Of a stretch of DNA of 32,895 nucleotides, positions 21,696 to 25,212 are shown piece by piece. Positions within the stretch are counted from its first letter, which is position 1. The number at the start of each line of letters is the position of its first letter. The notes under the pieces were generated by a model. The model searched no databases, was not told the origin of the DNA, and was given only the letters and a program-made list of their open reading frames with translations. Origin of the DNA: a bacterium (GTDB lineage: Bacteria; Patescibacteriota; Minisyncoccia; UBA6257; JACOXY01); the NCBI GenBank assembly GCA_030680955.1, contig JAUXUB010000031.1, forward strand, positions 1 through 32,895, written 5' to 3'. The translations under genes were made by a program, and so were the position numbers.

Positions 21696-21748
21696 ATCTT
21701 ACCAAATTTAATTAAAATTATTATCGCTGCGGTCTTCGAATTCCTCAC

Positions 21749-21960
21749 GCAAGCATAGCAGTATGCTTGCTCTCGTACGTGGTGCGCTCGGAGGGATTGA
21801 ACGCGCTCTTTGCCGACTGGCAAATCGCTTCACGAAACCCACGGTTTCGTGAACTTCCTACTCGGGAGACCAAATGTTCTCCCGACCCCTCTCCAGTTCG
21901 AACCCCTTCTCGACGCCATACAAAACTAAAACGCCAATAAAGATTGTCTAGTTTTGTATG
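21749..21960. repeat. Cluster of five perfect hairpins bounded by a duplicated tRNA-Arg 3' end
   Basis: GCAAGCATA-4-TATGCTTGC; TTTGCC-4-GGCAAA; TTCACGAAACC-3-GGTTTCGTGAA; CGGGAGA-8-TCTCCCG; CATACAAAACT-22-AGTTTTGTATG. Confidence 0.85.
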
Positions 21961-22032
21961 TGCGCTCGGAGGGATTCGAACCCCCAAATTCAGCTTCGAA
22001 GGCTGACGTGATATCCATTTCACCACGAGCGC
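21961..22032 (-). tRNA. tRNA-Arg (anticodon TCG)
   Basis: GCGCTCG...CTTCGAA anticodon loop...GGTTCGAATCC...CGAGCGC-A cloverleaf; no encoded CCA. Confidence 0.92.
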
Positions 22033-22115: not shown

Positions 22116-22186
22116 GCCCTCATAGCTTAATGGTAAAGCACCCGCCTCTTAAGCGGAGTATCTAAGTCCGATTCTTAGTGGGGGCA
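22116..22186 (+). tRNA. tRNA-Lys (anticodon CTT)
   Basis: GCCCTCA acceptor, CTCTTAA anticodon loop, TGGGGGC-A 3' end. Confidence 0.85.
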
Positions 22187-22276
22187 CAATATTTCTAGTT
22201 CAATGAGTAAGCATTAAAAATCGTAAATCCTTTAATGATTTAATAGATCAGCCCTCAATAAGCCTTGGATAAATTT

Positions 22277-24498: not shown

Positions 24499-25212
24499 AT
24501 GAGACCACAAATTGTACCAGGAAATATTTATCATATTTTAAATAGGGGTGTGGATAAACGTAAAATATTTCTAGATGATATGGATTATCTTAGATTTATT
24601 CACGATCTTTTTGAGTTTAATGATGAAAATCCCTCGCTAAGTAATAGCCACCTTTTCAAAGCAATAAAAACATTCGAACCCCAATATTCGGACTTGCGAA
24701 GTCCGAATATTAGTAGGGAACCAAGAAAACTATTAGTGGAAATTTTAGTTTTTTGTTTAATGCCTAATCATTATCATCTTATGGTCAGACCTTTAACTGA
24801 GAAGGGATTGGTAAAATTCATTAAAAAACTAAATATTGGTTACGCCAATTACTTTAATCAAAAATATGAAAGGAGTGGAGCATTATTCCAAGGACGATAT
24901 AAATCAATTGCAATTACAAACGATGCGCATTTTATACATCTTCCATACTATATCCATATGAATCCATTAGATCTATATATGCCAGAGTGGCGCAAGAGGG
25001 AACTTAAAGACTACAATAATGCATTTGCTTTTTTAGAAAAATATAGGTGGAGTAGTTTTCAGGATTATATTGGAAAAAAGAATTTCCCATCAATTACACA
25101 GAGAGATTTCTTATTAAAATTCTTTAATGGACCAGAAGAACATAAAAAATCAATACTTAAGTGGTTAAAAGATTTTGATCCTGAAGAAACAAGGGCCTTG
25201 ACACTCGAATAG
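24499..25212 (+). CDS. Y1 (HUH) transposase, RAYT/TnpA_REP-like
   Basis: YHILNRGVDKRKIFLDDMDYLRFI, FCLMPNHYHLMVRP, YANYFNQKYERSGALFQGRYKSI. Confidence 0.9.
   Translation: MRPQIVPGNIYHILNRGVDKRKIFLDDMDYLRFIHDLFEFNDENPSLSNSHLFKAIKTFEPQYSDLRSPNISREPRKLLVEILVFCLMPNHYHLMVRPLTEKGLVKFIKKLNIGYANYFNQKYERSGALFQGRYKSIAITNDAHFIHLPYYIHMNPLDLYMPEWRKRELKDYNNAFAFLEKYRWSSFQDYIGKKNFPSITQRDFLLKFFNGPEEHKKSILKWLKDFDPEETRALTLE
24683..24711. repeat. REP-like palindrome, copy 2, inside the transposase CDS
   Basis: AATATTCGGACTT-GCG-AAGTCCGAATATT, translated as QYSDLRSPNI. Confidence 0.97.

Follow-up and report, generated by a model that had tools for sequence, protein, structure and literature searches.

A short, probably integrative DNA element behind a tRNA-Arg gene and its relatives at conserved gene ends

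The array behind tRNA-Arg(TCG)

Why does the 3′ end of an intact tRNA gene occur a second time a short distance behind it, with a row of hairpins in between? The question arises on contig JAUXUB010000031.1 of a bacterium of the phylum Patescibacteriota, a stretch of 32,895 nucleotides that was analyzed as a whole and is called the window here, in which a ~180-bp non-coding element adjoins tRNA-Arg(TCG). The same element core stands at the ends of many unrelated genes in related genomes, and on balance we read it as a miniature integrative element that is non-autonomous, has folded DNA as its attachment site and carries a complement matched to its target.

The original prediction, made from the letters of the window, had noticed a duplicated tRNA-Arg 3′ end, and this was borne out: GTGCGCTCGGAGGGATT is present as exact 17-nt copies at 21782-21798 and 21960-21976, for which the chance expectation within 621 bp is about 1e-5 by an arithmetic estimate. 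The target gene, an intact tRNA-Arg(TCG) at 21960..22032 on the minus strand, was called by ARAGORN and by the Rfam tRNA model (69.3 bits), and the gene-end repeat, which we call R, starts with tRNA positions 61-73 (21961-21973). The displaced 3′ end with CCA, a 17/17 repeat at 21780..21798 (-), is the right border of the element; as had also been seen, it lacks one T-loop base (GTTCAATCC versus GTTCGAATCC) and carries a CCA, read as TGG at 21780-21782 on the plus strand.

Between these ends the parts follow one another on the minus strand. Behind the gene is a trailer hairpin, ATACAAAACTA ... TAGTTTTGTAT, at 21918..21959, which is part of inverted repeat I1 (arms 21896-21928 and 21949-21981), and then the T-arm in inverted form, reading GGGGTTCGAAC on the minus strand, at 21896..21906, found by sequence and repeat search; this target-matched complement is the candidate guide. 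Trailer hairpin and complement together make a 33-nt foldback of the tRNA 3′ end that is 76% complementary. The conserved core of what we call family A, GGAGAGGGGTCGGGAGAAC...GTCTCCCG..GTAGGAA..AAACCGTGGGTTT hairpin, spans 21831..21896 and was scored at 76.9 bits (E 5.4e-19, own genome) by R1, a model of the 66-position core built from eight sequences with the window among them; the E-values of R1 and of its family-B counterpart R2, both built in this analysis, are rough, and the genomes are drafts. Within the core lie hairpin P2 at 21862..21885 (inverted repeat I6, 10/11 pairs), which covaries in homologues, and hairpin P3 at 21829..21853 (inverted repeat I4, 11/11 pairs), the stem of which is re-paired in homologues. 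A variable 6-bp hairpin, P4, placed by sequence and fold at about 21808..21823, adjoins the displaced gene end. The resulting order is direct, inverted, core, direct, and the inverted part had been absent from the original prediction. Its four perfect hairpins with a fifth just beyond do exist, and most of them are perfect, but not all, as P2 shows. The fold of the segment beats all 200 shuffles on each strand (z -4.8 and -6.2).

Families, targets and the junction

A DNA search of 60 relatives matched the insert itself behind tRNA-Glu, Phe, Leu, Pro, Ala, Val, His and Thr, in addition to matches at tRNA-Arg. Within the order, R1 detected family A in 84 of 199 genomes, and a sample of 287 genomes from across the phylum gave 22 with it; the richest genomes (~0.5-1 Mb) have at least 14-15 matches, and the counts per genome may be lower bounds because a limited number of candidates was scored in each. 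The genome of the window holds three family-A elements, namely the one described here and those at tRNA-Glu (locus L021) and tRNA-Phe (L022). Almost all elements are shorter than 250 bp and non-coding. Searches with Rfam at gathering and relaxed thresholds returned only tRNA and tRNA-like noise; no match at E values up to 5 overlapped the core, and the core fitted no covariance model of a group I or II intron or another Rfam RNA. No description of such elements was found in the open-access literature, the only literature covered, which is not proof of novelty; the family, which is spread across the phylum, appears to be undescribed so far.

The tRNA neighbors in 78 analyzed family-A loci represent 18 isotypes. 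Protein genes, with names inferred from their translations, are also targets, at the 3′ end for rplK, rpsI, rpmG and pgk, and at the 5′ end for fusA, a lepA/typA-like GTPase gene, rplK and rnhA, where the element is always directed away from the gene. In two genomes of different families (L048 and L054), rplK has an outward-pointing family-A element at both ends. Cores within a genome resemble each other more than cores of different genomes do (0.745 versus 0.688, permutation p about 0.001), despite their differing targets, and at L102 the cores of two elements, one at tRNA-Gly and the other 1.9 kb away at tRNA-Arg, are near-identical.

A second family, B, was recognized in 52 of the 199 genomes of the order with R2, which was built from six sequences including the window, and it has the same order of parts as family A without recognizable similarity in the core. 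The window contains the left part of a family-B element at 21725..21772 (-) (69.9 bits, E 3.9e-19), and the fifth hairpin, at 21749-21770 with 9/9 pairs, belongs to it. This piece is an older insertion whose right part and displaced end have been lost.

The order of parts is fixed across loci: R at the end of the intact gene, then in most cases a hairpin that is terminator-like in several loci, the complement of R, the core, and the displaced R. The core pattern reads GGGAAAGGGGTCGGG...CCCGTGGCGGAA with hairpin P2, followed by P3 (AACC-GNNG-GGTT) and then the variable P4. R may extend past the gene: at L040, L062 and L120 it takes in the start codon and DNA upstream of the gene and measures about 57-70 nt. 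At many loci, among them that of the window, the complement forms the last stretch of a more extended foldback of R.

Where the element begins and ends relative to the tRNA can be read from the agreement between intact and displaced ends, which per position is 0.95-1.00 at 61-73, 0.84 at 60 and 0.15-0.61 at 53-59. This drop places the right border of the element at tRNA position 60/61, and its right end carries variants of its own (GTGAGATT, GTTCGACT). The complement, ~9-15 nt long and matching the end of its own gene, behaves differently, since in 51 tRNA loci it is complementary to the intact tRNA at 0.92-1.00 per position over 53-61 and to the displaced copy at only 0.16-0.71 over 53-59. 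At positions 59-65 it matches its own tRNA in 4.88 of 7 positions versus 3.27 of 7 for other tRNAs. We conclude that the complement follows its target down to the variable bases, and the stem that it would close varies with the target as well (GTTCGA, GCATCA, GGTCAA and others). Loci of more distant genomes (L091, L096 and L097) have a complement that reads like the T-loop CGAG inverted to CTCG, so that an internal loop is built into the closing stem.

Several further observations concern the targets. At L118 (4542-8018), the 3′ end of a tRNA gene is separated from its displaced copy by 3.4 kb with several open reading frames (GIY-YIG, PsbP-like, NYN) and no recombinase, with the core at the far end, which suggests that the unit can carry cargo. 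Two family-A-bearing tRNA genes have a group I intron inside or beside them, namely that of L023 (130-437, Rfam Intron_gpI) and that of L118 (3987-4559), where the tRNA contains a long intron with an open reading frame; L053 and L082 resemble these two loci. In the window, tRNA-Lys(CTT) at 22116-22187 (+) is divergent from tRNA-Arg and is without any element.

Occupied sites and DNA-type stems

The original prediction set the insertion of a very small non-coding element with an att-like duplication against a decayed tandem tRNA gene whose stems do not covary. Neither decay nor absence of covariation was found. In 62 loci the repeated part is only the tRNA 3′ end from position 60/61 onwards and never the 5′ half; the insert has no 5′-half remnant of the kind that a decayed tandem gene would leave. 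The proposed comparison of related tRNA-Arg loci gave 17 of 18 relatives empty at the orthologous tRNA-Arg(TCG) and one with a family-B element, and the 5′ site of rplK is empty in genome G183 and occupied in its congener G085. Together with the shared core at unrelated targets and the sharp 60/61 boundary, these empty and occupied orthologous sites support the att-like duplication, as do two further kinds of evidence. The first is serial insertion (L025 and L177): at L025 a family-A element sits in front of a family-B element, with three tRNA-Pro ends and CCA on the last only. At 11 loci the displaced end encodes a CCA that the intact end lacks, and the reverse holds at two (p = 0.02), a bias that is expected if the displaced end is older. 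The second is that insertions in protein genes can be flanked by diverged alleles. Synonymous and nonsynonymous codon differences between intact and displaced ends number 15:1 for rplK at L048 and 13:0 for pgk at L056, and are less skewed for rplK at L054 (9:5) and fusA at L047 (8:3); diverged alleles with almost only synonymous differences would not be the product of a fragment decaying in place. Tandem multiples of family B with identical or near-identical units behind one tRNA gene were seen at L177 (1946-2340), L180 (2610-2935) and L179 (1743-1956).

The stems themselves covary strongly. Among 108 distinct homologues, P2 is paired in 99.0% of cells and shows double changes at 7/9 pairs, with 68 double-changed cells versus 17 in shuffles; the family-B hairpin, in 56 distinct homologues, covaries at 9/9 pairs and is 99.2% paired, with 101 double-changed cells versus 24. 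Columns 18:45, which form one of the P2 pairs, hold A-T in 66 sequences and G-C in 40, with no G-T between. Mismatches over P2, P3, P4 and the B hairpin comprise 31 G-T and 22 A-C, P3 and P4 having been located by Watson-Crick pairing alone with G-T and A-C treated alike, whereas the acceptor and T stems of the tRNAs at the same loci gave 109 G-T and 4 A-C (Fisher p = 2e-9). G-T is thus about as rare as A-C in the element, unlike in the tRNA stems, which argues that the structure is kept on DNA. From these alignments, selection seems to act on DNA hairpins, as a folded strand or cruciform, and not on RNA.

Explanations and known systems

How could such an element come to lie behind so many genes? 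In the account that we favor, it would enter at conserved gene ends, mostly at the border of T-loop and T-stem in tRNA genes (position 60|61), pushing the original gene end outwards and leaving an intact gene in front of itself, and because the gene stays intact, insertion would be harmless and repeatable. By comparison with attC, the attachment site would be a folded DNA strand, in which the complement on the left pairs with the displaced target flank on the right, closing P2-P4 and leaving an internal loop where they join at the junction. The complement (about 9-15 nt) is likely to be the guide that picks the target through base pairing, and a host or helper recombinase or nuclease acting on the folded DNA may join the strands. 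The family, its targets, the order of parts, the junction, the empty and filled sites, the DNA-type covariation and the match to the target are observed; we infer that the element moves, that the folded strand is its substrate and that the complement acts as a guide. Homologous recombination could also carry the element to the same gene of another genome, as the two copies of the gene end are ready-made homology arms.

Several results weigh against this account. None of the four enzyme families covered by the correlation (PF00589, PF01797, PF00078 and PF01548) tracks the element. Tyrosine recombinases (PF00589) occur in 18/19 carriers and 17/19 non-carriers, and genome G194 has 14 element matches with no PF00589 detected; most genomes have the family whatever their number of element copies, in a search that does not separate IntI from Xer. 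Y1_Tnp (PF01797) is in 6/19 carriers and 4/19 non-carriers, leaving 13/19 carriers without it, RVT_1 reverse transcriptase (PF00078) is in 9/19 and 8/19, and the IS110 DEDD transposase (PF01548) is in 0/41 genomes. Viral contigs lacked the core pattern, phages and plasmids gave no copy by blastn, and no excised form was observed. Some loci are without a displaced end or have an imperfect complement, and for rplK of G085 either the intact or the displaced copy could be native. Finally, displaced ends are still ~98% identical to intact ends, which would require recent insertion or conversion. The genome of the window has three Y1_Tnp genes; the window itself encodes a 237-aa protein with this domain (IS200-like/RAYT-like transposase) at 24499-25212 (+), about 2.5 kb from the element.

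The best surviving rival, although unlikely, is that the element is the gene-stripped remnant of a tRNA island made by a tyrosine recombinase, with the repeat as attL/attR and the hairpins as arm sites. A restored gene with a displaced fragment is the textbook signature of such islands (PMC4383910), a crossover within the T-arm would fit, most genomes have a tyrosine recombinase, and L118 has genes between its repeats. However, one attB is normal for a tyrosine integrase, whereas here hundreds of copies of one ~110-nt core, nearly all gene-free, stand at 18 tRNA isotypes and seven protein genes. Moreover, att sites lack a target-matched inverted copy, and the elements do not correlate with PF00589.

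The original prediction had offered a structured RNA transcribed behind the tRNA as another option, and a regulatory RNA, ribozyme or guide RNA would account for the strong compensatory changes and for a multi-helix fold closed by the complement. We regard this as distinctly unlikely, since the stems do not have the G-U signature of tRNA stems from the same loci (G-T to A-C of 31:22 versus 109:4), a terminator-like hairpin often stands between tRNA and element, and no Rfam family matches. The orientation of the element relative to its target gene also differs between 3′-end and 5′-end targets, being opposite to the gene at fusA, lepA, rplK and rnhA.

Template switching at quasi-palindromes could have left direct, inverted and direct copies of a gene end as a non-mobile by-product of replication. 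On the left side, gene end and trailer often form a long foldback (I1 in the window; L029, L068 and L070), and template switching also yields perfect Watson-Crick hairpins; yet it cannot put one unrelated core at dozens of unrelated genes, and the two ends, intact and displaced, are diverged alleles at some loci. As a full explanation we consider it quite improbable, although it could be the source of the inverted copy alone. Most improbable of the four is spread solely by homologous recombination of donor DNA, natural transformation being one route, in which the gene-end repeats would be the homology arms and no dedicated enzyme would take part. This agrees with synonymously diverged gene ends on both sides and with the lack of a tracking recombinase but leaves new targets with near-identical cores in one genome unexplained (L102, and genomes G068 and G098).

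Three other candidates were discarded. Family-B matches spaced 1-3 kb apart, which recall integron-like arrays, are tRNA gene clusters in which each gene has its own element. A self-splicing intron is contradicted by displaced ends that often have an extra or altered T-loop base and by 5′-end targets that run in the opposite direction, and guide-RNA homing of the IscB/TnpB type was set aside because the intact gene still matches the complement in full and the stems are unlike those of an RNA.

These small genomes contain an abundant repeat class that is absent from Rfam. If a miniature integrative element is the right answer, the ends of many tRNA genes and some ribosomal protein genes in the phylum may have been exchanged between lineages. 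A bolder and more tentative proposal is a retargetable DNA-insertion system, common to two families that share no recognizable sequence similarity, in which the complement in the folded site might program insertion at position 60/61 of nearly any tRNA gene and at a few more highly conserved gene ends, with the gene automatically restored. Were the complement a guide, insertion sites would be chosen by a DNA hairpin, and hundreds of natural guide/target pairs would make the rule directly testable.

In IS200/IS605 elements, short internal guides of ~4 nt pair with the target or cleavage site, and the target is not duplicated. Our element resembles these in its short internal candidate guide and differs in its target duplication and in the guide length, and Y1_Tnp does not track it. 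The bridge-RNA elements IS110/IS1111 have a retargetable guide in their non-coding DNA. Our element would share this feature, but no IS110 transposase occurs in the 41 genomes and the element stems are not RNA-like. DNA hairpins are a further feature in common with IS200/IS605 and with REP/RAYT repeats (REP families, PMC3733652), and a Y1_Tnp gene is also in the window.

Islands at the 5′ end of dusA likewise insert inside the 5′ end of a conserved gene, but they are multigene, encode an integrase and have a single target (PMC4482086). The attC sites of integron cassettes are similar in form: they too are folded imperfect inverted repeats at one end of a mobile unit, with unpaired positions in the stem, one stem arm from neighboring DNA, and a structure that is kept while the stem sequence varies (PMC2727003). 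Unlike attC, the element has no constant R boxes and apparently no integron platform, its target is the host gene itself, and its closing stem is target-specific. Genomic islands in tRNA and tmRNA genes, recognized by the Islander signature of a restored gene and a displaced fragment (PMC4383910), are similar in that the target gene is restored, the displaced 3′ fragment lies at the far end and tandem insertions are possible. They differ in being multigene, whereas the element, ~0.1-0.2 kb in size and in almost all cases without genes and hence without an integrase gene inside, has many targets per core, an inverted target copy and a folded core. The mechanism that we favor would thus combine an attC-like folded site (PMC2727003) with the restoration of the target gene known from tRNA islands (PMC4383910).
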